In this document: positions 1 to 56,901 of the stretch, piece after piece
Layout of the letters: each line of letters begins with the position of its first letter
Numbering within the stretch: position 1 is the first letter of the stretch
Origin: Halichondria panicea
Lineage: Eukaryota; Porifera; Demospongiae; Suberitida; Halichondriidae
Direction of reading: 5' to 3'
Length of the DNA stretch: 64,000 nt
NCBI RefSeq assembly: GCF_963675165.1
Contig: NC_087379.1
Coordinates: 1,616,201-1,680,200 of the forward strand
The notes under the pieces: model-generated
Database searches by the model: none
What the model was told of the DNA's origin: nothing
Seen by the model: only the letters and a program-made list of their open reading frames with translations
Program-made: the position numbers and the translations under genes

Positions 1-1
1 A

Positions 2-457
2 CCGTATGCTTGTTTTGGCCCAAGAGGAATTGTCTACAACAACACAGTGTACCTAATGGGGGGACGTGTTGGCAAGAATCTAAACAAGGTGTGTGCTGCT
101 CAAGTCGACAAGCTCATCTCAGCAGACCGACAGGATGATGGGAGTGCCAACAAAGCTGACTCTGTCTGGAATACACTATCCAACACACCGTCTTACCAGC
201 CCTCCCCTGTAACGATATCCGACACCCTCTTTGCTGTTATTGGAAAGGATAGTGAAAATAAAACCACTCAAAAGATCTACGCCTACTCATCCTCGATGGA
301 CTCCTGGCTCTACATTGGTGATCTACCATCTCCTATAGCATACGCTGCCACTGTGTCACTGTCTCCAACAGAGTGCCTTGTGATCGGGGGACTGAACAAT
401 GAATGTGAAAGACAATCAACTGTGCATAAAATTAAAAGTGCAACAACCATTTCTTGA
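2..457 (+). CDS. KCK gene K0: 3' part of the Kelch exon (cut by window edge)
   Basis: The reading frame is open from base 2 and ends at a TGA at 455-457. It encodes the last blades of the same Kelch propeller found at 12852-13751 and 55981-56901, with GG-type blade ends (LMGG, VIGG) and the W of the blade repeats. Kelch propellers bind proteins or other ligands on one face. The rest of the gene (kinase, coiled coil, first blades) lies left of the window. It differs from the other copies mainly in short loop segments after the GG motifs (GRVGKN, GKDSENKTT) and after YAC (FGP). One blade has IG instead of GG (AVIGKD). No lesion is visible in this part. Family membership is certain by near-identity to the other copies. 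Confidence 0.85.
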   Translation, partial: PYACFGPRGIVYNNTVYLMGGRVGKNLNKVCAAQVDKLISADRQDDGSANKADSVWNTLSNTPSYQPSPVTISDTLFAVIGKDSENKTTQKIYAYSSSMDSWLYIGDLPSPIAYAATVSLSPTECLVIGGLNNECERQSTVHKIKSATTIS

Positions 458-578
458 GTGTTTTGGTTTGTATAGCTCAAATGTTTATGATAATTGTTGA
501 AATAATCATAATCATGTTGCATAGATACTTGCATGGTACACGATAGAGGTTACCATGCATGCAGTGCATCATACAACG

Positions 579-848
579 TAGTTGGGCGCCGCCGCCCTCT
601 ACCGTTGCCTGGAAGGAGGTCAGGATTGATCACACCCACTCAACTGTACCACGTGTGAATTTTACACACGTTGGATTGACTGAGAGGCGAGGCCAACACC
701 CACTTTAATAAATTATATTCATCGCTATTGGTTAGCACCCACATAGAATGAATGATATTTCATGATACTATTGCGTAACAGGCCAGAACAAAACTGTTGA
801 TGAACTTGATTCCCGACCTCCTTCAAGGAGGGCGGTGACGCTCGACTA
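579..848. mobile_element. 270-bp MITE, 9-bp target duplication (MULE-like)
   Basis: Inverted ends start TAGTTGGGCGCCGCCGCCC and finish GCTCGACTA. The flanks carry an exact 9-bp duplication, CATACAACG (570-578 and 849-857). A related element sits at 63432-63650. No coding capacity. It occupies most of the gap between K0 and the CWF19L1 copy. The 9-bp duplication suggests the Mutator-like superfamily; that assignment is inference. Confidence 0.8.
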
Positions 849-972
849 CATACAACGTACCATGCAGCCCCTCCCCTTTAATTATCATTGGACAACAAAC
901 ACAAAACGTCAATTATACAAAAGTGAAAGTGAAAATAAACTTGATCATCGTTGTCAGTTGTAAGTTGTGAAA

Positions 973-1507: not shown

Positions 1508-1547
<40 letters not shown>

Positions 1548-6403: not shown

Positions 6404-6406
6404 TCA

Positions 6407-7710: not shown

Positions 7711-8397
7711 TCAATGTCCTCCACCTTCATGCTCTCGTACTTCTTGACCTTCGTACTCTCAGAGGACTGTGAGGGCGTGGCTGAGGGAGGTGGGAGCAGG
7801 CTGTGGGCAACAGTGGCAGCAGAGGGAGTCCTGCTCTCATATGCCACTGTGTGTGTGTGGGGGGGGGGGGTTAGTTGAGTATGCCATACAGTAAGAGGGT
7901 GGGATATATATACACACGTATAGTAGCTGATGATACTAGATACTGTATTAATACGAACAGCTTTTAAAGATATTCAAAGATATTTGAAGCAAAGGATATG
8001 GTTTAAAATACAATGAGACTATTAATTAACTTACCAGTATTGTTGCTGGTACTGCCGTTGGTATTGGTGGAGTAGATATTTTGGTTCATTTCGTCAAAAT
8101 TGATATCCAGTGTCTCCAACTTCTCATCCTTTAGTGCCTCCTCTGCGCTGGGAGTCTTGATAGATTTTACTCTCACTTTAACATCCACACTCTCAGAGAC
8201 TAGGACGTTTGTCTTCCTCTGACTAACTGGAGTAGAGGCCAGAGAGTTGAGCTCGTGGGACTCGAAGGATTGGGTGTCGACATCTCTTCTGTTTCTGTCT
8301 GGGAGGAGATAGTAGTCAGTGACAGAGCCAGAGGAAGGTGGGCGGTTGATGGTTACGTATCGTTCCTCTGAATCATGTGAGGACACCTTGTTCTGTG
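7711..8397 (-). CDS. Last two exons of an unknown gene with tyrosine motifs
   Basis: Read on the minus strand, an acceptor CACAG at about 8398 opens an exon to 8034 that ends at ACTG|GTAAGT. The next acceptor, in a CA-rich tract near 7847, joins in frame (SNNT|VAYESR) to a stop at 7711-7713. The predicted C-terminal part is about 165 residues, hydrophilic and rich in S, T, P and acidic residues, with no membrane segment. It has several tyrosines in YxxhydrophobicX-like settings (YVTI, YYLL, YESM), as in cytoplasmic tails that bind SH2 or adaptor proteins. Upstream exons were not found with confidence. It has no second copy in the window, unlike its neighbours. Function unknown; the tail interpretation is inference. 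Confidence 0.5.
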
Positions 8398-9660
8398 TAC
8401 GTGTGGGGAGGAGGGGACAGTTGAGATTAGTTGGTTGCTCTACTCACTAACACATAGAATACTGTTCCATGCAATCACTTCGAGTCAATATATGCAATAT
8501 GTCAGTACAACATACTACCATGAATTATAACTCTAGTCTTTAAAGCATACCAGAGAAAGAAAGATTGATTTTCAACCTGGTATCAGATCTTTGACTTTGT
8601 GATGCAAACTGTACGGAAAGCGACTAAATACTACAGGAATATGTCCAATGTCCACCTTTGAACCTTGCATATAAAATACACCTTTTAATGGTAAAAAACC
8701 GTTAATATTCAAACTGTCAGAGATGAGAGCTAGCTAGGGCCTGGGGCTAGGGGGAACAGACTGCAGTCGTTGCTGTAGCCTCCTTGTGGTGAACCATGTA
8801 TCCTCTACTATCTATGGTACAAGTAAGATAAAATTAGGTAGTCTATAAAATTATAATTATATCATCTCAGTACATGCAGTACATGCAGTATACACAATAG
8901 CTAGCTGGTACATGGTATGGTATAGATACATGTCTGATGTAGATCTAGTATTAGTAACGCTTGTTTGTAAAGACAGACCCTTCGCACCACCTTCACTCTT
9001 GTTTCTTCTTTTCCGCTATATGTCCATTTACTCCATACGTTTCATACTATCTCACTTGTAATTGTTGTTTCACCATTTCCCAGGCCGTACTGTACAAGTG
9101 AAAGCAATCCTTGAGATCTGCAACGTCTTGGTCTACAAAGAGTCTGTCGTTCACTTCTCATTTCTGGATTCTTAACCCATGTTCCTGTGCATCATTACTG
9201 TGTGGCTTGTGCTACACTGAGTACATATTTTTGTCTTCAAATTTTGAGTGGAGTTTCTACTGGGACTATTGTAGCATTGTCCTTGGGACCGAGGCTACAG
9301 ACTGCTCTGCCTCATAAGTGAAGAGGCGAACACAAATGCCAGAATGTTCTTTCACAATAATAATTGTTTTTTGTGCAATAAAACAATGTTTGCTGTATTA
9401 ATTTCAATAGTGTTACAACATGTTGGGATGCATGAGCACATTAATTTTAATACCCTGTATGGATCTGCACTAGATCTAGTATTAATTGAATGTCATAATC
9501 CTCTGGAGCCGCCCCCACATCATAGATAATTATAAGGTCAAAGTTCATGGACTTAAGCTCTTGTAACTGTACAAGCCACACCTCCTTTTGCTGCAATAAA
9601 GGAAGGGCGTATCTAGTACCATGAACTTTTAGGGCTGCTTGTTTTTGTCATGCTTCACCA
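8398..9660. other. Spacer upstream of K1
   Basis: No convincing exon on either strand. A solo transposon-like end (CCTCTACTATCTATG, 8802-8816) matches the ends of the 7-bp-duplication elements described at 35125 and 41072, but no partner end was found nearby. A short inverted pair (AGTTCATGG at about 9542 and CCATGAACTTTT near 9620) lies about 40-120 bases upstream of the K1 leader exon. Confidence 0.5.
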
Positions 9661-9662
9661 AT

Positions 9663-9904: not shown

Positions 9905-12900
9905 ATGGCTGTAAATCCACAAACTTTCGAGCAGTTCACTCTGAGACAAATTCGCATCACTGAGAATGAGTTGGGACATGGTTCCTACGCTGTTGTCATG
10001 GAGCTAGAGTATCGAGGACTGAAATGTGCCGGCAAGAAGCTTCACAGAGCTCTGTACGAAGCTGGAATCGGGCATGCAGCACGAAGGTATCTGGAGGAGT
10101 GTCACCTGCTCAGTCAAACTAGGCACCCCAACATTGTCCAGTTTCTGGGAGTCTGTTTTGAGGAAGGCTCTCAGTTCCCCATCCTAGTCATGGAGTTCCT
10201 CCCCACCAACTTGACCAGCTGTCTCGAGCGCTACGGTATTCTCCCCGATGAGATCAACTTCTCCATCCTCCATGACGTCTCACTGGGCCTTGCCTACCTC
10301 CATGGCCAAACACCAGTCATTGTGCACAGAGACCTCTCAGCCAACAATGTCCTATTGTCCACCAACATGATGGCCAAGATATCCGATCTGGGGGTTGCTC
10401 GAATATTGAACCTGACCCCCCTTCAAGTGAGTCGAATGACAGAGACCCCTGGCACCCCAGCGTACATGCCCCCCGAAGTGATGATTGCCGACCCCCACTA
10501 TGACACCAGTGTGGATGTGTTCTCCTTTGGGGTCATGATGATTCACACCTTTACAGCAGAGTGGCCACTACCTAAGATCGGTCCCAACAGAATCGATCCT
10601 GCTAATCCCAATGGTCTGATACCAGTAACGGAAGCTGAACGACGTGAACATTTTCTTCGAAAGATTTCCCCAGACCACCCTCTGATGGACCTCATCATGC
10701 GCTGTCTCAGCAACAACCCTCAGCAAAGGCCTAGAGCAGCGGAGATAGTGGGTCGGATGGTGGGTGTGGTACTTGAACATCCTCCCTCCTTTGAGAACAG
10801 AGTGGAGATGCTCCAGCGAGTGAGTGCCCTACTGACAGAGAAGAGGGAGCTTGAGGAGGAGGTTGTGAGGAAGGACTCGGCAATCCAGGAGAAAGTAGGA
10901 GAGAACGAGGCACTGGCGGAGGAGAAAAGACGACAAGAAGAAGAAAGTGAAAACACTGTCGAGCGTATGCAGTTGGTGCACTCTGTGGAAACTGATCAGT
11001 TTAAATTGGAGATTGAAAATCTTAAAGGTCAACTCGAAGATAAAGAGACAATTGTTAACACAAAAGATGCATTTATCTTCTCCAAAGATGCTAGGATTAC
11101 TGAGGTAGAAACTCGATGTAAGCAACTCACTGAAGAGGTGGAGCAACAAATTGCCAACGTCAACTACACTCACAACGAGCTTGTATCTAAAGCTACGAAA
11201 ATAGCTCAACTGGAAACAGATGTCACCAATCTCACTGCACAAGTGGAACAAGAGCAAGCTTGTTTAGCTGACAAAAACTCTATTATCACCCACAATAACT
11301 TGACTATCGCTCATAAGGCTTCGATCATTGCCTCCAAGGACACTTCCCTTCTAAAGAATAAAACCACCATTCAGAGTTTAAACGACCAACTCACCAAAAC
11401 TAGAGACTACCTGACCAGCAAACCACAGGTGAGCTCCTCAACACTGTACCACTAACTGATATGATACTGAGTATACCATCGCCACCCTAATAGAAGTAAT
11501 AGCCTCAAAAATTTCGCGCTTGCGATATTATAATTATTTCCACCCTAATTATGCCTCGAGGCGTAGCCGCACGAGGGATACGGTAAAGCTGACTGTGTGT
11601 GTGTGTGTGTGTCTGTCTGTGTGTCTGTTCCAGCTGTAACTGCTCAACGGTTGCAATGCGACCTAACAGCTTCTATAGGCTTCTAGCCACGTTCTCTTGG
11701 ATTTTGATTCGTGGATTAGCAAACTAAAGCTTCTTTCTTGAGTTATGGCTAGTTTGACTCACATTGAAGGCTGTTGCAGTCTCTTCAAAATCTTTCATAA
11801 CATCATCTATCCGCACAAACTTCCTATTCAACATATGAGTTAGCCTTGCACTAAAGCGCTAGCTTTTTGTTAGCTACAATACTTAGAAAATATCTGTTAA
11901 AACAGCTAGCTAGCAGTAGCCATTGATCTCTTTGGACACACCCTTTAATTATTCCTATGGATGTAATGCGCATGCGCGCTCATTCCCCATGTGTGAGAAA
12001 TAATAATAATCCAAGATCCAGATCCTCCTGGCAGAATCATCTTTGTCTTGAAGGCCTGGTAAGCCACAAAACACTACCATATAACAATATAGATAGCAAT
12101 ATGCATGTACACAGGTCTTTTCTTCTTGCATATTATATACACTGAACTACAGATCCTGGAAGAACCAATTTTCTTCTTTCTTGACGTCCTAGTAAGCCAC
12201 ATAATACAACAATAGATAAGTTTTTTCTTCTCAGTGACTTTATATAGATAAGTTAACTTTAATATAAAATTCATTATAGAAACTAATATAACACTCTAAT
12301 ACTTTTCAGCGAAAGCAAAAACATGGCGAGAGGCATTAGCACAGCGCCAGCTTAAACTAATTCAAGGAAGTACCAAGTTCATTCTAAAGCTATTACTGTT
12401 CCAATTGAACACTAAGTACATTCTAAAAATTGTTTTTGCGATGCCTCGGTAATTCGAAGCAAAGTTGTTGTGTATTATAATGTGGGTTGTAATCAATGCA
12501 CGTACACATCTGTGAATATAATTATTTTGTCACAGTAATCACCACTCCAATAATAAGTGTCAAATAGTGTCCCATAGGATTATTTTGTTGATATGGTGTT
12601 GCTACGGTAATCTTATCATCTGATGTTAACAAAGCGTACCAGGACATGCATATCATACACTCCTGAACGTATGTACCATAGAACGCTACATACAAACTGC
12701 TTACATTCCTAAATGTTCCGAGTGATCGTACATGATTAGAATGAATATTTTCCTGTAAATAATAATTTAAGGCTAAAATAGATTTGTCGTCTTAATATCA
12801 AAATGTCTGCAACACAAGTTATTGACTCTCTGTATTCTCCAGTCCCTACAGGTTCAGTTGTCCTACAGTCAGTGCTCTGAGGCTCCAGTAAAGATGTCTC

Positions 12901-13751
12901 GTGGGCGAGCGGTTACCATTAATGGCAAGGTCTACTATGGTGGAGGAGTCTGTGGCGATGACTACTGTATCCATTGTTACGATCCGCCACAAGACATTTG
13001 GTCAACTCTGCCCAGACTTCCTGTACAAGGTTTTGGTCTAGGGGAGGTCAACGGTGATCTGGTAGCAGTTGGCGGTATGGATTCATCTGGCTATCCATCC
13101 AACGTGGTACATGTGTTTGACAAAGAAAGGAACTGGAAACAGACGATCCCACCCATGCCCACAGCGAGGTGTTCACCAGCAGTCATTAGTCTCCCAATAC
13201 ATCTGATCGTAGCAGGAGGTATGGTCCCTGGTGGCTACACTGATAATGTTGAGATCTACAACATCAGCACCTCCCAGTGGAGCGAGACAGACAGACTACC
13301 GTATGCTTGTTCTGCCCAAAGAGGAATTGTCTACAACAACACAGTGTACCTAATGGGGGGATTTGACGGCTATAATCGAAACAAGGTGTGTGCTGCTCAA
13401 GTCGACAAGCTCATCTCAGCAGACCGACAGGATGATGGGAGTGCCAACAAAGCCGACTCTGTCTGGAATACAATATCCAACACACCGACTTACCAGCCCT
13501 CCCCTGTAACGATATCCGACACCCTCTTTGCTGTTGGTGGACTGGATAATGAATATGATTTCATTCAAAGGATCTACGCCTACTCATCCTCGATGGACTC
13601 CTGGCTCTACGTTGGTGATCTACCATCTCCAATAGCATTCGCTGCCACTGTGTCACTGTCTCCAACAGAATGCTTTGTGATTGGGGGACTGAACAATGGA
13701 AGACAATCTACCGTGCAAAAAATTAGTATCGCAACAACTATTTCTTTATAA
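9905..13751 (+). CDS. KCK gene K1: protein kinase - coiled coil - Kelch (intact)
   Basis: Exons 9905-11428 and 12852-13751 join in phase 0 (KPQ|VQLS) and predict about 807 residues. Residues 17-285 form a protein kinase resembling tyrosine-kinase-like (TKL) enzymes: glycine loop GHGSYAVV (24-31), lysine K44 in CAGKK, catalytic HRDLSANN (141-148), DLG in place of DFG (161-163), and PPE (189-191). Residues about 295-500 are a charged heptad coiled coil. The second exon is a Kelch propeller with repeated GG blade ends and W residues. There is no signal peptide or membrane segment, so it is expected in the cytosol. By domain logic the propeller would bind a ligand, the coil would oligomerise and the kinase would signal; this is inference. 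ATG 9905 is chosen because it follows the conserved leader acceptor and all copies share MAVNPQ. No lesion is visible. Confidence 0.85.
11429..12851. other. K1 intron between kinase and Kelch exons
   Basis: A 1.4-kb intron. It contains a segment (about 11551-11890, starting TGCCTCGAGGCGTAGCCG) with a GT microsatellite, and a second segment (about 11910-12360) ending GGCATTAGCACAGCGCCAGC. Both are present in the K4 intron (52003-52350 and 55260-55710), so they predate the duplication. In K4 several transposons have inserted between them. No coding sequence. Confidence 0.75.
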
Positions 13752-18060: not shown

Positions 18061-21000
18061 CTGATAGTGATAGGTGTGTCTAAGTGTTTGTAGTAAGTTG
18101 TGAAACCGCACAGTTGCACAGCTTGTGCATGGCTTAGCGATTTGATTATGTGGTTTCACACATCCGTCCTCTAACCACTAACCACTTATCAATGCAAACA
18201 TGCAGCACTTGACTGCTGCACAAGTAGCTCAAGCAGTGTAATTAAATTTGCCAGACAATGATATATCGGCTGGTCCACGAGAATACACTCTGCTCTCTCT
18301 GTAACTTCACCTCTCTGTAACTCCACCTCAGATCAAGCTTTCTATATATACAGGTAAGATAAATTGCTTGAATACCATTTTAATTGGGCTTCGATATCCA
18401 GTTGGATTGCCTATTTAATATTGCATGCTTTTCTATTCCCACAGTAAAGAAGACAATGGCTGTAAATCCACAAGCTTTCGAGCAGTTCACTCTGAGACAA
18501 ATTCGCATCACTGAGAATGAGTTGGGACATGGTTCCTACGCTGTTGTCATGGAGCTAGAGTATCGAGGACTGAAATGTGCCGGCAAGAAGCTTTACCGAG
18601 TTCTCTACGAGACTGGAATCGGGCATGCAGCACGAAGGTATCTGGAGGAGTGTCACCTGCTCAGTCAAACTAGGCACCCCAACATTGTCCAGTTTCTGGG
18701 AGTCTGTTTTGAGGAAGGCTCTCAGTTCCCCATCCTAGTCATGGAGTTCCTCCCCACCAACTTGACCAGCTGTCTCGAGCGCTACGGTATTCTCCCTGAT
18801 GAGATCAACTTCTCCATCCTCCATGACGTCTCACTGGGCCTGGTCTACCTCCATGGCCAAACACCAATCATTGTGCACAGAGACCTCTCAACCAACAATG
18901 TCCTCTTGTCCACCAACATGACGGCCAAGATATCCGATCTGGGGGTTGCTCGAATATTAAACCTGACCCCCCTTCAAGTGAGTCGAATGACGGAGACCCC
19001 TGGCACCCCAGCATACATGCCCCCCGAAGTGATGTTTGCCAACCCCCACTACAACACCAGTGTGGATGTGTTCTCCTTTGGGATCATGATGATTCACACC
19101 TTCACAGCAGAGTGGCCACTACCAAGTATCGGCCAGACACAAATCGATCCTGCTAATCCTGACAGACTGATACCAGTGACGGAAGCTGAACAACGTGAAG
19201 AGTTTCTTCGGAAGATTCCCCCAGACCACCCTCTGATGGACCTCATCATGCGCTGTCTCAGCAACAACCCTCAGCGAAGGCCTAGAGCAGCGGAGATAGT
19301 GGGTCGGATGGTGGGTGTGGTACTTGAACACCCTCCCTCCTTTGAGAACAGAATGGAGATGCTCCAGCGAGTGAGTGCCCTACTGACAGAGAAGAGAGAG
19401 CTTGAGGAGGAGGTTGTGAGGAAGGACTCGGCAATCCAGGAGAAAGCAGGAGAGAATGAGGCACTGGCGGAGGAGAAAAAACGACAAGAGGAAGAAAGTG
19501 AAAACACTGTCGAGCGTATGCATTTAGTGCACTCTGTGGACTGATCAGTTTAAATTGGAGAATGAAGATCTTAAAGGTCAACTCGAAGATAAAGAGACAA
19601 TTGTTAACATGAAAGATACTACCATCGCTAGGTTAGAAACTCGATGTAAGCAACTCTCTGAAGAGGTGGAGCAACAAATTGCCAACGTCAACTACACTCA
19701 CAACGAGCTTGTATCTAAAGCTACGAAAATAGCTCAACTGGAAACAGATGTCACCAATCTCGCTGCACAAGTGGAACAGGAGCTAGCTTGTTTAGCTGAC
19801 AAAAACTCTATTATCGCTGACAAAGATTCAATGCTTGCCTTCAATGACATCTCCCTTCAGAAGAAAAAAACCACCATTCAGAGTTTAAACGACCAACTGA
19901 CCAAAACCAGAGACTACCTGACCAGCAAACCACAGGTGAGCTCATCAACACTGTACCATTAAGTGCACACATCTATAATAATTATGATACCCTCATAATA
20001 ATTATTATGATTATCACCACCCTAATAGAACCAAAGCTTACTGTTCCAATACAGCATGCACCAAGTATTTTCTTTTTGCGATGCCTCAGTAATTAAAATT
20101 CAAGTGTGTATAGTGTGGCTTGTAATAATTGGTCATGTACAATTACTCTTAGTGTAGCCATCGTATGCTAATCACCACTCCAAATATATGCGCCAAATAA
20201 TAAGGCTATTTTAGTGGTTCAAAGTTACCATAGCAACAAAAATATATACCTTATAGTGGGTAATTTTCATTGGTTCTATCAGGAGTTCCTGGTTCTATAT
20301 ACCATAAAATGCGAAATTTTTGAGGCACTTATATTTCGTGGATTAGCCTCTAAAAGCATTTTGTTGCACAATGTTATCGGAATGACTGCTTACCGGAAGC
20401 CACGCCTTTAAATCTTTGCACGTTATAGCAGGTAATTCTAATTAAAAAACAATTTTCGTGGACTTAATTTTCGTGTAGGATTGGTAACCCACAAAATCCG
20501 CGAAAATTAAGCCCCTCGAAAATTTCACGCTATACGGTACCTATTTAAAATGTTCATATTCATACAGCTCAGGATAGCGACGTTGAACATAATTATTGCG
20601 CCAGAAAATTTTTTGGTTTTAATTTTCATATGAGCTCTACTGATAATTATGGAAAGTACAAACATTTTCACCATACGAAAATAACCCTCTATATACTATA
20701 TTTATGTCGAGCCCACAGGATGCTTATAATATATTAATTGTTGCTATGGTAACCTTGAACTAGTAGCCCTCTTGTCTGAGGGAACCTTACATTGATTCCC
20801 TGTTATTAGATAGCCAAATATGCCCCTAATCACATGCAACACAAGTTATTGACTCTCTGTATTCTCCAGTCCCTACAGGTTCAGTTGTCCTACAGTCAGT
20901 GCTCTGAGGCTCCAGTGAAGATGGCTGGTGGGCAAGCGGTGACCATCAATGGCAAGGTCTACTATGGTGGAGGAGCCTGTGATGACGATGATGACGAGTA

Positions 21001-24337: not shown

Positions 24338-25174
24338 TACTGTATCCACTGTTACGATCCGCCACAAGACGTCTGGTCAACTCTGCCCAGACTTCCTGTA
24401 CAATGGTTTAGTCTAGGAGAGGTCAAAGGTGAACTGGTAGTAGTTGGCGGTGCAGATTCAATGTGGTACATGTCTTGAACAAAGGAAGGAACTGGAAACA
24501 GACGATCCCACCCATGCCCACAGCGAGGCACTCACCAGCAGTCGTTAGTCCCCCAACACATCTGGTCGTAGCAGGAGGTGGGTTGGGCTCTGGTCACTAC
24601 ACTGATAATGTTGCGATCTACAACATCAGCACCTCCCAGTGGAGCGAGACAGACAGACTACCGTATGCTTGTTATAACCAAAGAGGAATTGTCTACAACA
24701 ACACAGTGTACCTAATTGGGGGATATGGCGGCAATAGTCTAAAGAAGGTGTTTGCTGCTCAAGTCGACAAGCTCATCTCAGCAGACCGACAGGATGATGG
24801 GAGTGCCAACAAAGCCGACTCTCTTTGGAATACAATATCCAACACACCGTCTGACCGGCCCTCCCCTGTAACGATATTCGACACCCTCTTTGCTATTGGT
24901 GGAATGGATAGTGGATATAAAGCCAATCAAAGGATCTACGTCTACTCATCCTCGATGGACTCCTGGCTCTACGTTGGTGATCTACCATCTCCTATGGCAG
25001 GCACTGCCCCTGTGTCACTGTCTCCAACAGAGTGCCTTATGATTGGGGGATGGAACAATAACGAAGAAAATCAATCTACTGTGTATAAAATTAGAACTGC
25101 AACAACTATTTCTTGAGTGTTTTGATAACCCAAAACCCAAATTTTCATATCATTATTTTCTTGAGTGAAACATG

Positions 25175-28535: not shown

Positions 28536-30778
28536 ATTGCAAACATCTGACTCACACTAAAATAAATGTACATGTACACGTTTACTCAATCAGAGCATTG
28601 TCATGAAATTGGCCAGTTTTGTATGGTGTATGCTTTGAATAGTCTCTAAATGAATGTCAGCAAAACTCTGTCGTGTGTCCATCAGCTGTATATGCTTTTC
28701 TATTCACACAGTAACGAAGACAATGGCTGTAAATCCACAAGCTTTCGAGCAGTTCACTCTGAGACAAATTCGCATCACTGAGAATGAGTTTGGACGAGGT
28801 TCCAACGCTGTTGTCATGGAGCTAGAGTATCGAGGACTGAAATGTGCCGGCAAGAAGCTTCACAGAGCTCTGTACGAAGCTGGAATCGGGTATGCAGCAC
28901 GAAGGTATCTGGAGGAGTGTCACCTGCTCAGTCAAACTAGGCACCCCAACATTGTCCAGTTTCTAGGAGTCTGTTTTGAGGAAGGTTCTCAGTTCCCCAT
29001 CCTAGTCATGGAGTTCCTCCCCACCAACTTGACCAGCTGTCTCGAGCGCTACGGTATTCTCCCCGATGAGATCAACTTCTCCATCCTTCGTGACGTCTCA
29101 CTGGGCCTGGTCTACCTCCATGGCCAAACACCAGTCATTGTGCACAGAGACCTCTCAGCCAACAATGTCCTCTTGTCCACCAACATGACGGCCAAGATAT
29201 CCGATCTGGGGGTTGCTCGAATATTGAACCTGACCCCTCTTCAAGTGAGTCGAATGACAGAGACCCCTGGCACCCCAGCGTACATGCCCCCCGAAGTGAT
29301 GGTTGCCAACCCCCACTACAACACCAGTGTGGATGTGTTCTCCTTTGGGATCATGATGAGTCACACCTTCACAGCAGAGTGGCCACTACCAAGTATCGGC
29401 CAGACACGAATCGATCCTGCTAATCCTGACAGACTGATACCAGTGACGGAAGCTGAACGATGTGAAGAGTTTTTTCAAAAACTATCCCCAGACCACCCTC
29501 TGATGGACCTCATCATGCGCTGTCTCAGCAACAACCCTCAGCGAAGGCCTAGAGCAGCGGAGATAGTGGGTCGGATGGTGGGTGTGGTACTTGAACACCC
29601 TCCCTCCTTTGAGAACAGAGTGGAGATGCTCCAGCGAGTGAGTGCCCTACTGACAGAGAAGAGGGAGCTTGAGGAGAAGGTTGTGAGGAAGGACTCGGCA
29701 ATCCAGGAGAAAGCAGGAGAGATCGAGGCACTGGCGGAGGAGAAAAGACGACAAGAGGAAGAAAGTGAAAACACTGTCGAGCGTATCCAGTTGGTGCACT
29801 CGGTGGAAACTGATCAGTTTAAATTGGAGAATGAAGATCTTAAAGGTCAACTCGAAGATAAAGAGACAATTGTTAACATGAAAGATGCTAGGATTACTGA
29901 GGTAGAAACTCGATGTAAGCAACTCACTGAAGAGGTGGAGCAACAAATTGCCAACGTCAACTACACTCACAACGAGCTTGTATCTAAAGCTACGAAAATA
30001 GCTCAACTGGAAACACATCTAGAACAGGAACAAGCTTGTTTAGCTGACAAAAACTCTAGTATCGCTCAAAAAGATTCCACTATTGCTGTCAAAGATTCAA
30101 CAATTGCTCACAAAGATTCGACTATTGCTCACAAAGATTTGATGCTTGCCTCCAAGGACACTTCCCTTCAAAAGAAAGAAGCCACCATTCAGAGTTTGAA
30201 CGACCAGCTCACAAAAACTAGAGACTACCTGACCAGCAAACCACAGGTGAGCTCATCAACACTGTACCAGTAAGTGCACACATCTGTACCGTCGTATCTC
30301 TTATTGTTTAGTCAACCTAATGTGCCTAGTCCATTTAATGTTCCAATTGAACTCAAAGTTATAATTCTGTTTTTGCTATGCTCGGTAATTCGTCAAAGTA
30401 GCTGTGTGTATTATAGTGTGGCTTGTAATTATAATGGCTAGCTATAGCATGTGAATATATTCTGCTATAATCACCACTCCTATATAAGAGCCAAATTAAA
30501 TAATATAAGCGGAAAATTATGTTCCACAGGATCGATACTGGTATAATAATTTTGTTGCCATGGTAACCTTATACAGGGTTTTGCAGAATTCTTGCAACAG
30601 GCAGAGCAATGACTTCCATATATGGAGTTGTAATTGTGTAAACAGCTGTAGACCACAGATGCATGGTTTTATTTTAAGAGCACCAAAACTAGCTAGCTAT
30701 AGCTAGTTGTACACTCATTTCTATAGCTCTGAATTCTGATCTGTGACTAAACACTAGTACTAAGAACTAAGACTGACT

Positions 30779-32848: not shown

Positions 32849-33826
32849 CTTTCAATTCAATTCAAGCTATTCAAATAATTATATGTGCATGCACATGTAC
32901 TACAAGTCAGCAGTGACTTCCATATATGGAAGTCATTGCTGTGTCTGTTTAGCCCTGTTGCAATTCAAATAATTATTGTGCATTGCATATGTACCAAGTC
33001 AGCAATGACTTCCATATTCCTTCTCTGTATCCAACGTGGTACATGTGTTTAACAAAGGAAGGAACTGGAAACAGACAATCCCACCCATGCCCACAGCAAG
33101 GTATTTACCAGCAGTCGTTAGTCTCCCAACACATCTGATCGTAGCAGGTGTGTTGGACTCTAGTGGCTTCATTGATAATGTTGAGATCTACAACATCAGC
33201 ACCTCCCAGTGGAGCGAGACAGACAGACTACCGTATGCTTGTTCTACCCAAAGAGGAATTGTCTACAACAACACAGTGTACCTAATGGGGGGAAGTGACG
33301 GCAATATTCTAAACAAGGTGTGTGCTGCTCAAGTCGACAAGCTCATCTCAGCAGACCGACAGGATGATGGGAGTGCCAACAAAGCCGACTCTGTCTGGAA
33401 TACATTATCCAACACACCATCTTACCAACCCTCCCCTGTAACGATATCCGACACCCTCTTTGCTGTTGGTGGAGTCGATAGTGAAAGAGAAGCCACTCAA
33501 AAGATCTACGCCTACTTGTCCTCGATGAACTCCTGGCTCTACGTTGGTGATCTACCATCTCCTATAGCAGGCGCTGCCACTGTGTCACTGTCTCCAACAG
33601 AGTGCCTTATGATTGGGGGACTGAACAATGAAAGAGAAAAACAATCTACCGTCTATAAAATTAGTATCACAGCAACTATTTCTTGATTATTGTTGTGGAT
33701 AATAATGTTTCAAAGTTAATGTTGAGTGAACATGAAAATTTAATAGTGCAACCAGCCCCTCCCCCTTATAGACTATTGCAATGTCAGCATAAACGACCCT
33801 CTTCCAGCTCATGGACAGGTCTCCTG

Positions 33827-43110: not shown

Positions 43111-43224
43111 CTAATAATAAACACATGTATGCCATTGAATACATGCCAGTATAGCTATATCTGCAAGTATACTTACCCACAGTTCTCTTTTTGTAGAGAA
43201 TAGACAATTTCTAGCGGTTTTTCC

Positions 43225-44192
43225 ATCCTTGGGTTTGGCCAAACAGCCCATGGAAAAGGATCCATATTGACTACGCTGGTCCATTCTTGAACAAAATGTT
43301 TCTAGTGGTTGTAGACGCCCATTCCAAGTGGCCAGAAGTGATTCAGATGTCTTCCACTACGTCTCAAAACACGATCGAGGCACTGCAAGCACTATTTGCT
43401 CGGTATGGACTACCAGAACAGATTGTTTCCGACAATGGTGCACAATTCACATCCCAAGAATTTAGCGATTTTGTTCAAGCCAATGGCATAAGACACATAC
43501 GAAGTGCTCCATACCATCCCTCCACGAACGGCCAAGCTGAACGATTTGTACAAACGTTCAAAAGAGCCATGAAAGCTGGAGAGAGAGAAGGACTGAGTTT
43601 GAAAACAAGATTGGCTCAGTTTTTACTGTCATACCGCTCAACTCCACATGCTACCACTAACGTCTCACCGAGTGAACTGTTCCTTCAAAGAAAAGTACGT
43701 ACACGATTCGATCTCCTCAAACCAAACACAGAGGGAAACGTATCTGACAAGCAGATGAAACAGAAACAGCAACATGACAAACATGCTAAACCAAGGACGT
43801 TCTCTGTTGGTCAACAAGTAATGCTCAAAGATTTCCGAACAAACGGTACATGGCTTCCAGGAAGCATTGTACAACAGACAGGACCAGTATCTTACAAAGT
43901 GGAAATTGGTGATGGCAGGATACTACGTCGACATATCGACCACATACGTGATAGAACTCATTCTCTTTCCACCACCGAGTCGTCACAAGACGATATAACA
44001 AATCCAAACGATTTCGACGATACGGCAGCTCACAAGGATTTGCAAGATTTTGAAGTTTCCCCTGATCAGTCAACTGATCCGTCTCCGACCCCACCTGATG
44101 AGTCACCCTCGACTGGTGCATTAACAGCTCGACAATATCCGCAAAGAAATCGCAACAGGCCTGATCGATATGGTGGGTACACTAACATTTAA
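43225..44192 (+). pseudogene. Ty3/gypsy integrase, 5'-truncated
   Basis: The frame is open from about 43225 (WVWPNSPWKRIHIDYAGPF) to a stop at 44190-44192. It has the integrase core D in VVVDAHSKW, the second D in IVSDNGAQF and the E in GQAERFVQTFK, followed by the C-terminal domain (FSVGQQVMLKDF, GPVSYKVEI). Gag, protease, reverse transcriptase and RNase H are absent. The purine-rich tract GGGGAGGAAA precedes the LTR at 44205. A remnant of a long-terminal-repeat retrotransposon nested in the larger element. Confidence 0.85.
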
Positions 44193-44590: not shown

Positions 44591-46515
44591 CTAATCATTA
44601 GCACAAACACATGTGTTGCAAACCTGTCGTTTTTGTCGGTATAAATTTCTAGAGAAATTGCATAAATTTTCTTTCATGCTGGAAAGGGACTGACTGGTAT
44701 GACAACTGCTAGATCCATTCTCGATTTCTTCTATAAGGGCACGAACATTGACAATAAGCTGCTGATTCTGCTTTCTAAGCTGCTGTATATCGTCGACTTT
44801 CCAACCACCTTCAAACAGTTGCTTTGTAGTTGTTCCCTTTTCCTTCAACTTTCTATAGGTGGCGTCCGCATACTCTAAAGCTGCACGCAATTAAAACGAC
44901 ACAACATGATATTTGCCTGCTAATGGAGGAAATACTTTATATACCTGTCAGAATGAATATCTTTTCTTCAAGTAATATCTGGCAGCATTTCCCCAAGTCT
45001 TCCACGCAGTTACTGCCAATCCTTATTGCCTTGTAGAAATCAAGCAGGTCTCTGTAAGCCTTAAACTCTTGCTGTAAGTCACCAGTGTCAAGATCAACAT
45101 CCCCACTCCACTCATGACGCATCGATTCTTTCAATCCAGAAACAAGATCACACCCATCCCCTTTCAACCATCAGCTTGTGTTCGGATTGCTCTTGTGAGC
45201 AGCATCAAGTATCTTCAGCTATAATGGTACCCAACAGTTGATACAATAATTTGGGCATGTCACTTATTATATACCTGAACCTCTGATCCCAAAGAAATTC
45301 CACTGCTAACAATGTCTCTTTCAAGAGTTCTTTCAGAGAGCCCAGGGACGTTGACTCTTGCCTGAAGCAACAATGAAAAACAGCTAGTATACATGTTATA
45401 GCACCTTAATTCAATGAATAATACCTGGACTGACTGAGAAGTTGACATAATTTTCCACATTGGACCACAGAAGATTTTTACCCATTTCGTTTCGAAGAGA
45501 GTAAACATGGACACTAGCCACTTTCTGTAGTCATCAGGGCAACGAACCTTAAAAACACCAGGAGTACATGGCACTGTAATTATATTGAACATACTGTTGC
45601 ATATCAGACAAACAGAAGAAATTAGAGCAATACTCAATGAGTCCCATTGGCATTCTTGAGACAGGTAGCCGTGATTCCTGACTGTTAGGTCTCTTCGTGC
45701 CTATTGCTTTCGCCAAGTTGTACATCACATTGGTTCTACCACCATGATCCAATTGCACCATAGCCTCAAGAGAGAGAATTAGATAATCGGAAGGATGAAC
45801 TCTTTCATAATAAAGAAGTGCATATTCCTGGAACAGCTTAGTCACCACACCGATCTGTTCTTCTCGACAGAGCTCTGATATTGTCTGATCAGTGCCTGAT
45901 AAAACACAATTGTTCATCATTGGGCAAGAAGAGTTTGTTTTATTGGTCAAATTGTATTCAGCCTTGGCATTGTCAGGAGAGGAAAAACGGTTTTGCAGCT
46001 CCCTCTGAACAGTGTTTCGACAGGCATCAGCTACAGTAGATGAGATAGAAAATTCACCATTATTTTTATGATACGAACATCTAGTAGCAGTTTACCTGTG
46101 CGTACTGCTTCCATGTTTACAAAGAGAAATTCAGAGGTATCTTTCCAAAACTGATGTTTTCTTCCAAATGCTGGCCACCTGTCTTTGAAGCCAGCACAAC
46201 ACACATAACTAGTTAGCTGCTCGAGCTCATCCAAACTCCATGCGATTGCGGCCTATATACATGCATCAAGACACATAATCAGTGAGCTATTGTTTTTACC
46301 CTTGATTGAGAATTTGTGAAGCTCAAACTCTTTCTTGCAGTACTTCTCAGTTGAGAATCAGGACTCTGTTGATTTAGAGACCTAACTGAAAGAGGGGACC
46401 GGACAAGTTGCTGTGTTGGAGGTCTGTGCCTTTTGGAAGGCTGTCTTGGAGTACTAGGGGAAGACTGGGAAGACACCCTTGGTTCAGTTTGTCCTTGTTC
46501 TCGAGATCTTTTCAT
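44591..46515 (-). CDS. Unknown multi-exon gene inside the P-like element
   Basis: The ATG is at 46515. Likely minus-strand exons: 46515 to about 46300 (MKRSREQGQTEPRV, basic and S/P/Q-rich), about 46255-46095 (LDELEQLTSYVCCAGFKDRW, FGRKHQFWKDTSEFL), about 46030-45610 (YALLYYERVHPSDYLILSLE, AIGTKRPNSQESRLPVSRMP), about 45550-45425 (YRKWLVSMFTLFETKWVKIF), about 45362-45280 (RVNVPGLSERTLERDIV), about 45225-45180, about 45167-44945 (FKAYRDLLDFYKAIRIGSN) and 44885-44591 (LRKQNQQLIVNVRALIEEI, stop at 44591). The last exon is predicted coiled coil. Splice sites fit GT-AG and all exons are open. I do not recognise the family; SERTLERD faintly recalls DNA-binding helices. Its place in a transposon suggests element or cargo function; that is inference. 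Confidence 0.55.
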
Positions 46516-46785: not shown

Positions 46786-47116
46786 AGGGAGTACACTTGC
46801 ACTAGAGCTAGCTAACTTCTTTAATTCCGAGCGAAGCGAGGCTATAATCGGGTCACGTTGAGATTTTGGCGAAGAAAATGGACAATGTACTAAGGACTCA
46901 ATGGAACTAGTGGCTCTGGTTGCTGCAGACCGTAACGGTTTGACTTCAAAGTTGGAGGACGCGTTAGCCACTGTACTGAGGACACCTCAGCTCCATTCTA
47001 CAGCTCAGAAGGCCTTTTTTCAAGCGTTCTGCTCATAAGCTAGACAATGTTTCTTAAATTGACGATTCGTGACATTTCGATCATTACCTAGATCTATTCT
47101 TTTCTGTAATCTGAAC

Positions 47117-47647
47117 ATGGAACTAGTGGCTCTGGTTGCTGTTTGGCAAGAAGCAATAGAAATAGGTGAGAGCTATTACATAACTAACCTAACTGTCAGA
47201 GTATTTTGTGGCGAGTATTCTGTTTCCATGCCAGCAAATGGTTCGTCCGTAACTAAACTTGACAACATTGACGATGTTGACGAATGTCTAACCGAATCTA
47301 ATGAACTTTCACTCATGGGTGCTACCGTCATTGCTGTCAAGAAGTTCGAAAAGTTCAATGCTTGCACTTACTGTAAAGGTAAAGTTAAAGTCGTTGAAGA
47401 TGACATCGTCGAATGCTCAAAATGTGGTGCAACACTCCTACTGTCTCGTTGCCCTTTTAATCATATGGCTAAACTGGACTTGGAAGGGCCAGATACCACG
47501 TTTGTTACGGTTGTTGTTTACAACGATTTAATCAAAGCCATTGTCGAACAAGATCAGCAAACTACTACTTCCCTCCTGAAAGCTAAACCGTTCGATATTA
47601 CATACAATCAATACCATGTAGCTACAAGTGTCTCTCGGCGACGTTGA
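47117..47647 (+). CDS. OB-fold/zinc-ribbon protein (RPA-like), possibly transposon-derived
   Basis: An open frame from ATG 47117 (MELVALVAVWQEAIEIGESY) to a TGA at 47645-47647, about 176 residues. The first part fits the latter half of an OB fold as in replication protein A (W, then GESYYITNLTVRVFCGEY). A four-cysteine zinc ribbon follows, C-x2-C (CTYC) and C-x2-C (CSKC), then hydrophobic strands (TFVTVVVYNDLI). RPA-type proteins bind single-stranded DNA. Such short OB/zinc proteins are common in repetitive parts of invertebrate genomes. A 25-base direct repeat (GGAACTAGTGGCTCTGG...) occurs at about 46910 and 47118, so the 5' end may be rearranged. Upstream exons could exist. Single-stranded DNA binding is inference. 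Confidence 0.55.
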   Translation: MELVALVAVWQEAIEIGESYYITNLTVRVFCGEYSVSMPANGSSVTKLDNIDDVDECLTESNELSLMGATVIAVKKFEKFNACTYCKGKVKVVEDDIVECSKCGATLLLSRCPFNHMAKLDLEGPDTTFVTVVVYNDLIKAIVEQDQQTTTSLLKAKPFDITYNQYHVATSVSRRR

Positions 47648-52900: not shown

Positions 52901-55900
52901 CTGCTGCAGCATAATTATTCTACTTTGATTAAGGCCAAGCAAAGTCAATTTGTAGTTTCTCTGGCTATTATTTTTAAAATAGCAAGCGGATTGAGGTATT
53001 TGATAAATATTAATGATAATGATACTCATAGAATTTTAATTGAAAACACACCCCTAACTTCCTCAATAAGCGGAAGTGCATAATTTTTATTTCATTAATT
53101 TTAGTCATAATTATATTCATGACCAAAAAACCATACAAATTTATCCTTTTCTTTTCTTTTAGTGCCTTTAATTTGAGGTCACGTGATATTTAACTTTTTT
53201 GTAAAGCTGCCAATTTCCAAGCGCGAGGGCCTGAGAAACTACAAATTGACTTTGCATGGCCTAATAGTGTCTCTGAAAGCTGCCATTGTGGTCACATTGT
53301 CATACGTATTATTCCCTTTTGTAACTTTGTCCGTTTTTTTACAATTTGTATGATGAAATTGTTGTCAGTTATTTCGCGCATGCGCATACAAGGATACCAG
53401 GCCGCCTTGTTCAAGCGGCCTGGAATCAAGGCTAAGCTAGCAGTAGCCTCAATCCCAGGCCGCACTTCCCACTAGGGAAGTGGGCCTGGTATCGACTGCT
53501 TGCGCATGCGCTAATATCCCCCCGGTATCTGGGGGCTTTGGATAACATCGTTTATGCTCAGTAAGACATCACAACGAAAGGAAGTGGATTGAAGGAAGTA
53601 GATAGAAAGTTCGATTGAAGGTTTCTAGCCCATCGGATAGCATTCTCTGATAGCTACCCTTAGCCTGCTATGTTAACAAAAGACTCACAGCCTGCAACAG
53701 TGTGGATGACGATCGTCTGAAAGGAGTGACGGCTGATAAGAGAGCCTATAATGGACAGGCCACGCCCATTTAACACTAACTTTGGTGAAAGTCTACTATA
53801 CTACTGCTACTGATTCTATCAGAAGAAAATAGCAGTACAACAAACCTACACAGCTCTGTCTCTAGCTAGCTAGCTATATAGCTCTGTGTATGACTTTTAG
53901 GATATTTTCTCTGATGTATCCAGTATTATAGGAATATTTACGGGGAAAATCCAATAATTTGGCGCATGCGCAAGCAGTCGATAGCAGGCCTTCTTTCAAA
54001 GGCCGGTGAAGGAGGCTAAGCTACAGGGATTTGAGGAGTTCTTGCAACTGGAATGTCGAGAGCGGAAGTACCTGTCACGTGAACCTTGGTAACAAGATTG
54101 AATTTTGGCTCATTCCAAACCAATTTTTCTCCAATAGAGCCTATTCATTTTTGTTAAACTGGGAAAACATTGACTTACATCAGAAAGCTAAGATCAAGAG
54201 CCTTTGGTAAAGGCTTTGCACCACAGCAGGTTGTCAGCTGAAGCTATCCTTGAGATTCTAAATCGTTTTGTGAGCTACTACTTGCCCCAGCCTGCCCGTA
54301 AGCTGTTGAAAGTGTATCACTAGTCTCAGTAAAATCTCTCTTAGGCTAGCTCCAGCTGGATACACAGTTTGTGTGACAGACTAATAGTAATAGCTCACGA
54401 TTGGGCTCAAGGATAGCTTTAGCTGTGGTGCAAAGGCTTGCAGATAATTATATGCAGAGCAAAGCCTCCTGTATAGGTCGATTCCCCCAAAATAAACAGG
54501 CCTAAAGGCTTTATTGGAGAAAAATTGGTTTGAAATGAGAAATGAGCCATAATTACGTAACTGTTCACGTGACAGGTACTTCCGCTCTCGACATTACAGT
54601 TGCAAGAACTCCTCTTATACCACACTTACGTCACCACAAATTGATCTCATTGGTCAACAGCTGTAGGATATATAGAATATTAGCATGCAGCCCCAGGCAT
54701 GCACAGTTTTTCAAGTTGTTTTTTAGTTTTTTCATTTGTTCAAGAAAGTAAGCAAAGAGAAAAGAGCCATGCTTGACGGTACTAAGACTCAAAGCGACGG
54801 CAGAAACACAGAAGGTGCTCTCCAACAAGATGGCTAAGCTTCCATGGGTCCATGGGCGCGGTTTAGATACATTTTATCCAAGAAGAGCTTGCAACTCCAG
54901 TAAGGGACGTCGAATGATCAACGCTTGGACCAAGGAAGCTCTTGAGCATCTGTAGGAGTCAACATGTTGCTCAACTAGCTTATTGACGGCTGCAAAATCC
55001 GGCATAGTCTTGTTCTTTTTTGCAGTCTGCATCGTGATTGAATTGTTGCTAGGGGGAGGTCCTTTTATAGTGCTGCGGTCACGTGGTATAAGTCAGATAT
55101 GCCACACCTACTCGGAGGATATGCACCCTATATATCCTCCGCTACCGTGGTTACATACCCCTCGGCTCCGCCTCGGAGTAACCACGGTAGCGGAGGATAT
55201 ATGGGTGCATATCCTCCTCTTAGGTGTGGTATATCCTATACAAATCCCTGTAGCAGTAGCCATTTGTGAAATTGATCTCTTTGGACACACCCTTTAATTA
55301 TTCCTGTGGATGTAATGCGCATGCGCGCTCATTCCCCCATGTGTGAGAAATATATCCAAGATCCAGATCCAGATCCTCCTGGCAGAATCATCTTTGTCTT
55401 GAGGGCCTGGTAAGCCACAAAACACTACCATATAACAATATAGATAACAATATGCATGTACACAGGTCTTTTCTTCTTATACACTGAACTCCTGGAAGAA
55501 TCAATTTTCTTCTTTCTTGAGGTCCTGGTAAGCCACATAATACAATAAATAACAACAATAGATGCATGTAAATAAGTCTTTTCTTCTCAGTGACTTTATA
55601 TAGATAAACTAACTTTTAATATAAAATTTATTATAGAAACTAATATAACACTCTAATACTTTTGAGCGAAAGCAAAAACATGGCGAGAGGCATTAGCACA
55701 GCGCCAGCTTGAACACTAGTTACTATAGCTATGCAATCATAAAATGAATGTCTTCCAACGAAGCATTATTTTTGCAAATCCACAAATTAAAATCCAAGAA
55801 AACATGACTAGAAGCCTATATAATAGAAACTCTTACTTGCACTTGATTCATCCTTGAGCAGTCTACACACACAGACACACAAACACACTACCGTATATAC

Positions 55901-56901
55901 CTCGCTTGCGCATGCGCACCGAGGCATAATCACATGCAACACACAAGTTATTGACTCTCTGTATTCTCCAGTCCCTACAGGTTCAGTTGTCCTGCAGTCA
56001 ATGCTCTGAGGCTCCAGTCAAGATGTTTGGTGGACTAGCGGTAACCATCAATGGCAAGGTCTATTATGGTGGAGGAGTCTGTGATGACGATGATGACGAG
56101 TACTGTGTCCACTGTTACGATCCGCTACAAGACGTCTGGTCAACTCTGCCCAGACTTCCTGTACGCTATTTTGATCTAGGAGAGGTAAAAGGTCAACTGG
56201 TAGTAGTTGGTGGTAAGGATTCATCCGGCTCTAGATCCAATGTGGTACATGTGTTTAACAAAGGAAGGAACTGGAAACAGACGATCCCACCCATGCCCAC
56301 AGCGAGGATTTCACCAGCAGTCGTTAGTCTCCCAACACATCTTGTCGTAGCAGGAGGTGTGGTCTCTGGTGACTACACTGATAATGTTGTTGAGATCTAC
56401 AACATCAGCACCTCCCAGTGGAGCGAGACAGACAGACTACCGTATGCTTGTTGTGACCAAAGAGGAATTGTCTACAACAACACAGTGTACCTAATGGGGG
56501 GGGGATCTGACGGTAAGCATCTAAACAAGGTGTTAGCTGCTCAAGTCGACAAGCTCATCTCAGCAGAGCGACAGGATGATGGGAGTGCCAACAAAGCCGA
56601 CTCAGTCTGGAATCCAATATCCAACACACCGTCTTATTATCCCTCCCCTGTAACGATATCCGACACCCTCTTTACTATTGGTGGAAAAGATAGTGGTGAA
56701 GCCACTCAAAGGATCTACGCCTACTCAACCTCGATGGACTCCTGGCTCTACGTTGATGATCTACCATCTCCTGTAGCATACGCTGCCACTGTGTCACTGT
56801 CTCCAACACAGTGCCTTATGATTGGGGGACGGAACAATGAAGGACAAAAACAATCTACCGTCTATAAAATTAGTAACGCAGGCGCAGCAACTATTTTTTG
56901 A
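49907..56901 (+). CDS. KCK gene K4: protein kinase - coiled coil - Kelch (intact)
   Basis: Exons 49907-51517 and 55981-56901 join in phase 0 and predict about 843 residues, making this the longest member. The kinase has glycine loop GRGSNAVV, HRDLSTNN preceded by VIA rather than VIV, DLG and PPE. The coiled coil is extended by an extra block that repeats the NELVSKATKIAQLETDVTNL pattern with changes. The Kelch exon encodes all blades, with its own loop residues (for example GKDSSGSRS, GVVSGDY, GGSDGKHL, GKDSGEATQ). The conserved leader exon (ends 49825) and acceptor (49897) support the ATG. The 4.5-kb intron is filled by transposons. No stop or frameshift is seen in either exon. Expected to be a cytosolic kinase sensor, as inferred for K1. 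Confidence 0.85.
52352..53433. mobile_element. 1.1-kb inverted-repeat element
   Basis: TTCCAGGCCGCTTGAACAAG continues into GCGGCCTGG and ATGCGCATGCG. The complement at about 53380-53433 ends CAAGCGGCCTGGAATCAAGG. The right end has extra bases (AAGGCTAAG), so the left end may be slightly truncated. It belongs loosely to the CCAGGCC palindrome group. No transposase seen. Confidence 0.7.
53448..54018. mobile_element. TAGCCTCAATCCCAGG MITE (copy b)
   Basis: An inverted duplicate of 48694-49200 plus the left end at 47891-47920. It runs from TAGCCTCAATCCCAGGCCGC to CCGGTGAAGGAGGCTA and includes a matching TCTAGCTAGCTAGCTATATA stretch. It shows the uninterrupted target of the nested element at 47921. 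Confidence 0.75.
54034..54614. mobile_element. 580-bp inverted-repeat element
   Basis: GAGGAGTTCTTGCAACTGGA continues to CGAGAGCGGAAGTACCTGTC, and the complement ends at about 54614. Inner segments are also partly complementary (CTTTGCACCACAGC and GCTGTGGTGCAAAG). The element is largely a foldback. No target duplication could be fixed. Confidence 0.65.
55095..55235. repeat. 140-base hairpin
   Basis: Inverted repeat with CCACACCTA at the ends, then CGGAGGATATGCACC, ATATATCC, TCCGCTACCGTGGTTAC and the complement. A loop of about 20 bases contains CTCGGCTCCGCCTCGG. Located in the K4 intron. Confidence 0.75.

Follow-up and report, generated by a model that had tools for sequence, protein, structure and literature searches.

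We analyzed a window of 64,000 nucleotides in the genome of the sponge Halichondria panicea (131,455,214 bases). The window spans positions 1616201-1680200 of C3, a single contig of 8,483,533 bases, and is enclosed by a double tandem array of kinase-Kelch genes on this one chromosome. The typical gene has two exons: exon 1 encodes a protein kinase domain followed by a coiled-coil segment, and exon 2 encodes the entire six-repeat Kelch domain. Five of these paralogs (copies A to E) are in the window, all on the same strand. The initial annotation, made from the sequence alone, described them as a kinase-coiled coil-Kelch array. Pfam domains and the periodicity of the coil support this description, but within the window just two of the five, B and E, are intact. 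Copies C and D are broken, and copy A crosses the left edge. These copies, and a transposase fragment beside copy D, are laid out as follows.

1..457, plus strand: copy A, 3' part of the Kelch exon, cut by the window edge (tblastn; full-length and open in L067, as translated)
9905..11428, plus strand: copy B exon 1, kinase domain and coiled-coil segment (Pfam; identical to annotated P0001)
12812..12842, plus strand: copy B, the last 31 bases of the intron, ACACAAGTTATTGACTCTCTGTATTCTCCAG (alignment of copies)
12843..13751, plus strand: copy B exon 2, intact six-repeat Kelch domain of 302 amino acids (Pfam; P0001)
18456..19935, plus strand: copy C exon 1, broken; kinase and coiled coil with an in-frame stop after 362 codons and a frameshift
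20870..20980, plus strand: copy C, initial 37 codons of the Kelch exon, followed by an insertion of about 3.4 kb
24338..25116, plus strand: copy C, rest of the Kelch exon, broken, with a change of frame near 24475
28723..30246, plus strand: copy D exon 1, open, kinase and coiled coil; annotated as the kinase-only protein P0023
32147..32851, minus strand: Tc1/IS630-like transposase fragment, directly ahead of the truncated Kelch exon of copy D (Pfam DDE_3, HTH_23, HTH_Tnp_Tc3_2)
33030..33686, plus strand: copy D Kelch exon, without about the first 85 codons
49907..51517, plus strand: copy E exon 1, intact, kinase and coiled coil (Pfam; splice donor)
55941..55971, plus strand: copy E, 31-base intron end
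55972..56901, plus strand: copy E exon 2, intact Kelch domain of 309 amino acids (Pfam)

Copy B is 100% identical to the annotated H. panicea protein P0001, which has 810 amino acids (508 codons from exon 1 and 302 from exon 2). We take annotated names such as dst1-like, Wnk-like, and shkD-like to reflect similarity of the kinase only. Exon 1 terminates with ...DYLTSKPQ, followed by the splice donor GTGAGC. Pfam identifies a protein kinase domain (Pkinase, E = 7.7e-42) and Kelch_1 (E = 1.9e-28 and 1e-24) in copies B and E, and the Kelch domain has six GG doublets, as expected for multiple Kelch repeats. The glycine loop, the catalytic lysine, the glutamate, the aspartate of HRD, the asparagine, the aspartate at the DFG position, and the glutamate of APE are all kept in 24 of 24 kinases; exon-1 copies with early stops were left out of this check. 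In the coiled-coil segment of the exon-1 consensus, hydrophobic residues recur with a period of 3.55 residues, and just 1 of 1,000 shuffles was equally strong; for the first 110 residues of the segment alone, 97 of 1,000 were. The N terminus of P0001 leads directly into the kinase, which suggests that the protein is cytosolic. Its highest 19-residue hydropathy is 1.73 (a usual rule of thumb is 1.6), at residue 618; this is within the Kelch domain, and we take it for a propeller strand.

The array extends well beyond the window. Searching the genome with the Kelch exon of copy B identified at least 56 loci of this close family, a lower bound with 123 of 459 candidates scored. Fifty-one of these loci are full-length (one has a stop, which leaves 50 open) and five are partial; the full-length loci are 74-100% identical in amino acids to the query. 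On C3, 27 loci at 0.87-1.17 Mb form a minus-strand half and 23 loci at 1.24-1.72 Mb form a plus-strand half, so that the two halves make a head-to-head double array. Another four loci are at 2.39-2.46 Mb of C3, one is at 2.96 Mb, and one is on C16. A genome search showed that kinase exons are distributed like the Kelch exons. A few genes have near-identical partners. The gene at 9905-13751 of the window (copy B) resembles C3:1580509-1584999, about 45 kb away, and its Kelch exon differs from C3:1584028-1584999 by a single residue; the exons of L060 and L062, about 22 kb apart, are identical. These pairs reflect either very recent duplication or an effect of the assembly.

The initial annotation had also proposed that the five paralogs differ in short clusters of residues at matching places, and we found these in the translated copies as claimed: RVGKN, FDGYNR, YGGNSL, SDGNIL, or GSDGKHL after a GG; FGP, SAQ, YNQ, STQ, or CDQ after YAC; C, H, Y, or I after TAR; QGFG, QWFS, or RYFD after LPV; and Y, F, G, G, and Y after SP(I/M/V)A. 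The identical stretches of 60 or more bases that were said to separate the clusters do exist, but they are few (77 and 75 bases between copies A and B, 65 between A and E, and 65 between B and E, these being the pairs compared). To study this variation across the family, we aligned 49 distinct full-length open Kelch exons (50 copies, two of them identical) over 306 codons. L020 (which has a stop), L081 and L082 (which are distant), the five partial loci, four repeat fetches, and the one identical copy were left out before the selection tests. The mean pairwise amino-acid identity is 81.5%, and just 5 of the 1,176 pairs are at least 95% identical. The most variable column is the first after YAC, with 15 different residues. 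In the 26 columns with an entropy of 1.9 bits or more, the entropies of codon positions 1, 2, and 3 are 1.31, 1.46, and 0.65. Across the 12 positions that directly follow a GG (GG+1) or the conserved arginine of a blade (R+1), the 49 copies have 47 distinct combinations of residues.

We tested each codon for selection with our own FUBAR-style code rather than HyPhy (an MG94-type codon model with a 13 x 13 grid of rates; sites were called at a posterior above 0.9). Because the copies exchange sequence (see below), we divided the alignment into six segments, each with its own tree. This test identified 28 positive and 40 negative sites among the 306. A test with a single tree identified 40 positive and 93 negative sites, with a global ratio of nonsynonymous to synonymous rates (omega) of 1.17, and 27 of the 28 six-segment sites were positive in it as well. 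In eight simulations under neutrality or constraint, the six-segment test gave no false positives; the simulated breakpoints were those used in the analysis. The rest of the protein is more constrained: among 24 distinct copies of exon 1, omega is 0.39 for the kinase domain and 0.62 for the coiled coil. In the 22 genes with both exons, the proportions of nonsynonymous (pN) and synonymous (pS) differences are 0.026 and 0.085 for the kinase and 0.085 and 0.088 for the Kelch domain.

Where do the selected sites lie? In a Kelch propeller, the BC and DA loops are on one face and the AB and CD loops are on the other; the BC loop comes after the GG, and the DA loop after the conserved arginine. KEAP1 binds conserved partners. 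The arginine equivalent in the sponge domain is 18 residues before GG+1 in five of the six blades, and 17 in the other. In KEAP1, whose sequence we matched to PDB, this spacing is 18 for R362, R413, R460, R507, and R554. The sponge domain thus resembles BTB-Kelch proteins (KEAP1, KLHL) in its six repeats, in this spacing, and in having its variable residues in the register that contacts Nrf2. It differs in context: the BTB-Kelch proteins are ubiquitin-ligase adaptors with BTB and BACK domains, whereas P0001 is a kinase, and its domain list has kinase and Kelch-type entries only, with no BTB or BACK. The KEAP1 residues that contact Nrf2 motifs include R483, S508, S555, R415, S602, S363, R380, and N382 (as described in PMC12266349), and these fall in the classes R+1, R+2, GG+1, GG+3, and GG+6. 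These classes come from another protein.

Comparing the copies in this register shows that diversifying selection falls almost entirely on one face, in its BC and DA loops. Of the 28 selected sites, 27 are in these loops, which have 72 of the 306 columns (hypergeometric p = 3e-18), and none are in the 49 columns of the AB and CD loops. The KEAP1 contact classes (30 positions) take 18 of the 28 (p = 1.5e-14). GG+1 is selected in all six blades and R+1 in five of six. At the contact-class positions, pN/pS is 1.95 (bootstrap 95% interval, 1.45-2.86), versus 0.54 (0.43-0.68) outside the face and 0.48 (0.32-0.73) in the AB and CD loops. By motif register, the differences therefore cluster on the predicted ligand face, as the initial annotation proposed, and at the variable sites nonsynonymous change exceeds synonymous change, both by the site test and by the pN/pS of the contact classes. 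Two of the three refuting conditions named in the initial annotation, randomly scattered variable sites and a dN/dS at or below 1 at those sites, thus do not hold, which supports its interpretation in part. Since the selected sites are not scattered, replacements are in excess on the face, and the kinase is constrained, the idea of a constant signaling part joined to a variable sensor stands.

A second family of kinase-Kelch genes shows the same pattern. It is found at 15.48-17.39 Mb and 10.98-11.03 Mb of C1, at 0.48-1.2 Mb of C6, and on C28 (L083, L085-L096). On C1 and C6, the annotated proteins of H. panicea combine a kinase, a coil, and a Kelch domain, and most have about 700-830 amino acids. 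Their Kelch domains are about 33% identical to those of the window family. This family is the larger one, with at least 127 Kelch exons that are 83% or more identical to one member (127 of 458 candidates were scored, so this is also a lower bound). We compared 38 distinct Kelch sequences, from L083 and from 37 proteins that include isoforms sharing a gene name. Of the 20 columns that vary most, 10 are among the 18 GG+1, R+1, and R+2 positions (p = 6e-9). For 13 DNA copies, pN/pS is 2.86 (1.83-5.49) in the contact classes and 0.42 (0.32-0.59) outside the face. Judging from these sequences, the second family is an independent replicate that shows the same ring of variable residues. We rejected scattered variation or relaxed constraint as the explanation, as pN exceeds pS at the face only, in both families. 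We also considered whether a Death domain is part of the second family. The N-terminal stretch at L083:1181-1470 has a weak match to it (PF00531, E = 0.081), and its top solved structure is FADD (E = 0.096). However, there was no Death match at E = 0.05 in 11 full-length proteins of this family, and we do not consider the domain to be established from two weak matches.

Two sets of five paralogs each, which probably come from other sponges, are about 45-54% identical to the window family; by eye, their members differ at many of the same positions, among others. Separately, L084 (C11:6156500-6159800) is a third and more distant kinase-coil-Kelch gene, and several such kinase exons are on C11.

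The copies also exchange sequence. None of 200 permutations of the columns reached the observed statistic for runs of identity, and a test like the pairwise homoplasy index was marginal (p = 0.027). Near-alleles found among public proteins differ in blocks: all 11 differences between P0154 and L077 are within codons 202-247, and the 7 differences between P0132 and L070 are within 180-235. Likewise, L014 and L018 have nearly all of the first half in common and a different second half. Directly ahead of the Kelch exon, the final 31 bases of the intron are unchanged in 27 of the 30 copies that have long flanks (and in 34 of the 48 copies examined), but further upstream in the intron, just 16-35% of pairs show homology. 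Thus, exchange seems to be limited to the exon and its edge. In most pairs, homology reaches no further than about 50 bases from the exon, so we dropped intron divergence as a neutral yardstick, and the intron distance of 0.35 is not interpretable.

Kelch gene content may vary as well. Among 120 listed of 221 public Kelch relatives, 30 have a full-length counterpart here that is at least 98% identical, and for 50 the identity is 80-90%. Twenty of the listed proteins come from four public contigs (398131, 271707, 249150, and 167020 bases). For fifteen of these (such as P0140, P0148, and P0162), nothing above 91% identity turned up among the sequences compared from this genome; of the other five, one (P0177) is 92% identical to a broken window copy, and the remaining four have matches of 98.8% or more. 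For P0162, which we searched for across the genome, the best match was 89%. This suggests that haplotypes or individuals differ in Kelch gene content; the protein database was clustered at 90% identity, and what the comparison shows is missing counterparts, not full haplotypes.

The window has some other open frames besides the array genes. An integrase core domain of a retroelement (rve) is in an open frame at 43215-44192. Between the array genes are frames of 327 amino acids (30764-31747) and 194 amino acids (47063-47647) with no Pfam match. Further frames of 146-180 amino acids are on the minus strand, at 8006-8443 (no Pfam match) and at 45260-46091.

From these sequences, we think that the genes probably encode germline-encoded intracellular recognition kinases of H. 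panicea, and we infer a role in immunity or self-recognition. The variable face would bind many different, changing ligands, which most likely would be molecules of non-self or microbial origin within the cell, or protein markers of self and non-self. Ligand binding would gather the molecules via oligomerization of the coiled coil, and the gathered kinases would then activate by phosphorylating each other in trans, giving one constant output signal regardless of the ligand. Mutation at about a dozen core positions would create new specificities, as would gene conversion of blocks the size of a blade. Taken together, recognition of non-self or of self markers is likely. The broader view is that sponges evolved a large, germline-diversified class of intracellular receptors that comprises at least two families, with some 180 exons or more in a single genome, and in which a propeller ring of about 12 core residues recognizes changing non-self or self-marker molecules, the kinase output is constant, and gene content varies between haplotypes or individuals. 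Such a class would be a counterpart of the NLRs of animals and plants and of the fungal NWD proteins, and we lean slightly toward this view.

Several results weigh against this interpretation. First, when each of the six segments is taken as a whole, its average omega is 0.70-1.04, and pN/pS for the entire BC and DA face is only 1.33 (1.00-1.76). When we simulated recombining sequences, the single-tree test gave 12-20 false positives at omega of 1 and 7-11 at omega of 0.5; because recombination inflates that test, its count of 40 should not be used. Seven of those 40 sites are outside the BC and DA loops (33 are inside), and one of the seven is in the AB and CD loops. In exon 1, 11 of 287 kinase sites and 5 of 218 coiled-coil sites also pass the single-tree threshold, and we leave these uninterpreted. 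Second, recent changes are enriched on the face rather than exclusive to it. In six pairs of very similar paralogs, 20 of the 41 nonsynonymous codon changes are on the face, along with 22 synonymous changes, and protein differences between near-alleles are mildly enriched there (14 of 35, p = 0.02, after 4 start-codon artifacts were removed). Third, synonymous change is itself raised on the face (pS of 0.19 versus 0.10), so some mutational or exchange effect is present. Fourth, the faces were assigned by motif register and Kelch topology, not by a structural model, and the limits of the loops (GG+1 to +8 and R+0 to +3) were set after viewing the data. Finally, the case is built from genome and protein sequences, and diverging endogenous substrates could also drive such selection.

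Within this framework, the face might read polymorphic self markers, as the non-self recognition proteins NWD and HNWD of fungi do, which would make the system one of allorecognition rather than immunity. This is possible, but we think it is unlikely. The closest functional analogue is this NWD family, in which selection acts on four codons per WD repeat. These codons lie on the interaction surface of the propeller (d-a loop and b-c turn), and repeats are exchanged (as described in PMC1805685). The NWD and HNWD proteins of Podospora anserina (het-d, het-e) share with the sponge family a constant signaling part, a propeller that is selected on one face, and exchange of sequence between paralogs, and inactivated NWD members keep intact repeats (PMC1805685, PMC2873952). 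They differ in being fungal, in having a NACHT nucleoside triphosphatase, and in having WD40 repeats that are near-identical within a gene; the sponge proteins are animal, have a protein kinase and a coiled coil, and have Kelch blades that differ from each other, and Pfam gave neither a NACHT nor a WD40 match in copies B and E. The 15 of 20 four-contig proteins without a match above 91% among the sequences compared are also what allorecognition would predict. On the other hand, the P0001 chain opens directly with the kinase, and a hydropathy scan (not a dedicated predictor) gave no sign of secretion, so contact with the surface of another individual would have to be indirect. Nor is a self ligand known.

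We also consider it unlikely, and a little more so, that these are substrate-specialized kinases, each using its Kelch face to recruit a different endogenous substrate or adaptor, so that the paralogs partition developmental or physiological signaling with no recognition of non-self. Kelch domains can recruit endogenous partners, as KEAP1 does with Nrf2 (described in PMC12266349), and the catalytic residues are kept in all 24 kinases examined. However, the sheer number of loci in the two families (at least 56 and at least 127), the excess of replacements confined to contact positions, and the exchange between copies better fit an arms race or a recognition repertoire. The broken copies in the array and the public copies without a counterpart here also fit a recognition repertoire better.

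Artifacts of mutation or gene conversion, whether from a hotspot, from templated mutagenesis as in diversity-generating retroelements, or from recombination that confuses the test, are very improbable explanations. Exchange was detected, and pS is about doubled on the face. Also, at 15 of the 26 most variable sites, T or C is the last base of the commonest codon, and positions 1 and 2 are variable. However, at the other 11 the last base is mostly A or G, and the third position is far less variable than the others. The 28 sites persist with six-segment trees, versus none in the eight simulations, and pN is higher than pS at the KEAP1-class positions of both families; one would not expect a hotspot to track the face of a propeller. 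We rejected retroelement-like templated mutagenesis because neither the third positions nor the variable codons that end in A or G single it out, although no search for a template was made. Lastly, uncollapsed alleles or misplaced duplicates are a still less probable explanation: the near-identical pairs mentioned above, and five more pairs that differ at 25 or fewer codons, are what such errors would produce, but the mean identity is 81.5%, only five pairs in 1,176 are at 95% or more, and the copies lie within one contig of more than 8 Mb.

How do the recognition kinases that we propose compare with known immune proteins? Among solved structures, those that the kinase matches best include CTR1, TNNI3K, WNK3, and RIPK2, which is a likeness to the RIPK, IRAK, and TKL-like immune kinases. 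Unlike those, the window family has the Kelch domain in the same chain, and no Death or CARD domain was found in exon 1 of copies B and E or in P0001. The NOD-like receptors (NLRs) of sponges are likewise an expanded and mainly intracellular family, but their sensor and effector differ: we found no NACHT, NB-ARC, or LRR domain in the window family (by Pfam for copies B and E, and in the domain list of P0001). The kinome of another sponge, Amphimedon, is reportedly very large, according to its genome paper. A transcriptome of H. panicea has 20 bona fide NLRs along with another 181 NACHT genes, and the majority of its putative recognition receptors are expressed in an individual-specific manner, as reported in PMC8242945; a link to the kinase-Kelch family was not shown there, and the word "kelch" is absent from the main text of that paper. 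Two sponges each have one "Kelch motif containing gene" whose expression falls after exposure to microbial patterns (as reported in PMC6208332), again with no link shown to this family. We found no description of hypervariable Kelch kinases among the top-ranked results from the open-access literature (subscription papers and bioRxiv were outside this scope).

Overall, at the level of molecular evolution, the array is real, the signal is strong, and it is undescribed as far as we searched; the function is one that we propose from that pattern. Diversifying propeller receptors are a kind of system that is already known, and what is new is the kinase-Kelch architecture. If our interpretation is correct, then an early-branching animal has a receptor class whose architecture we did not find described, in which a kinase bears its own hypervariable propeller, and the solution of the fungal NWD proteins, to vary one face of a propeller, arose again in animals. 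These genes would then be a concrete candidate for how sponges distinguish microbes or individuals.

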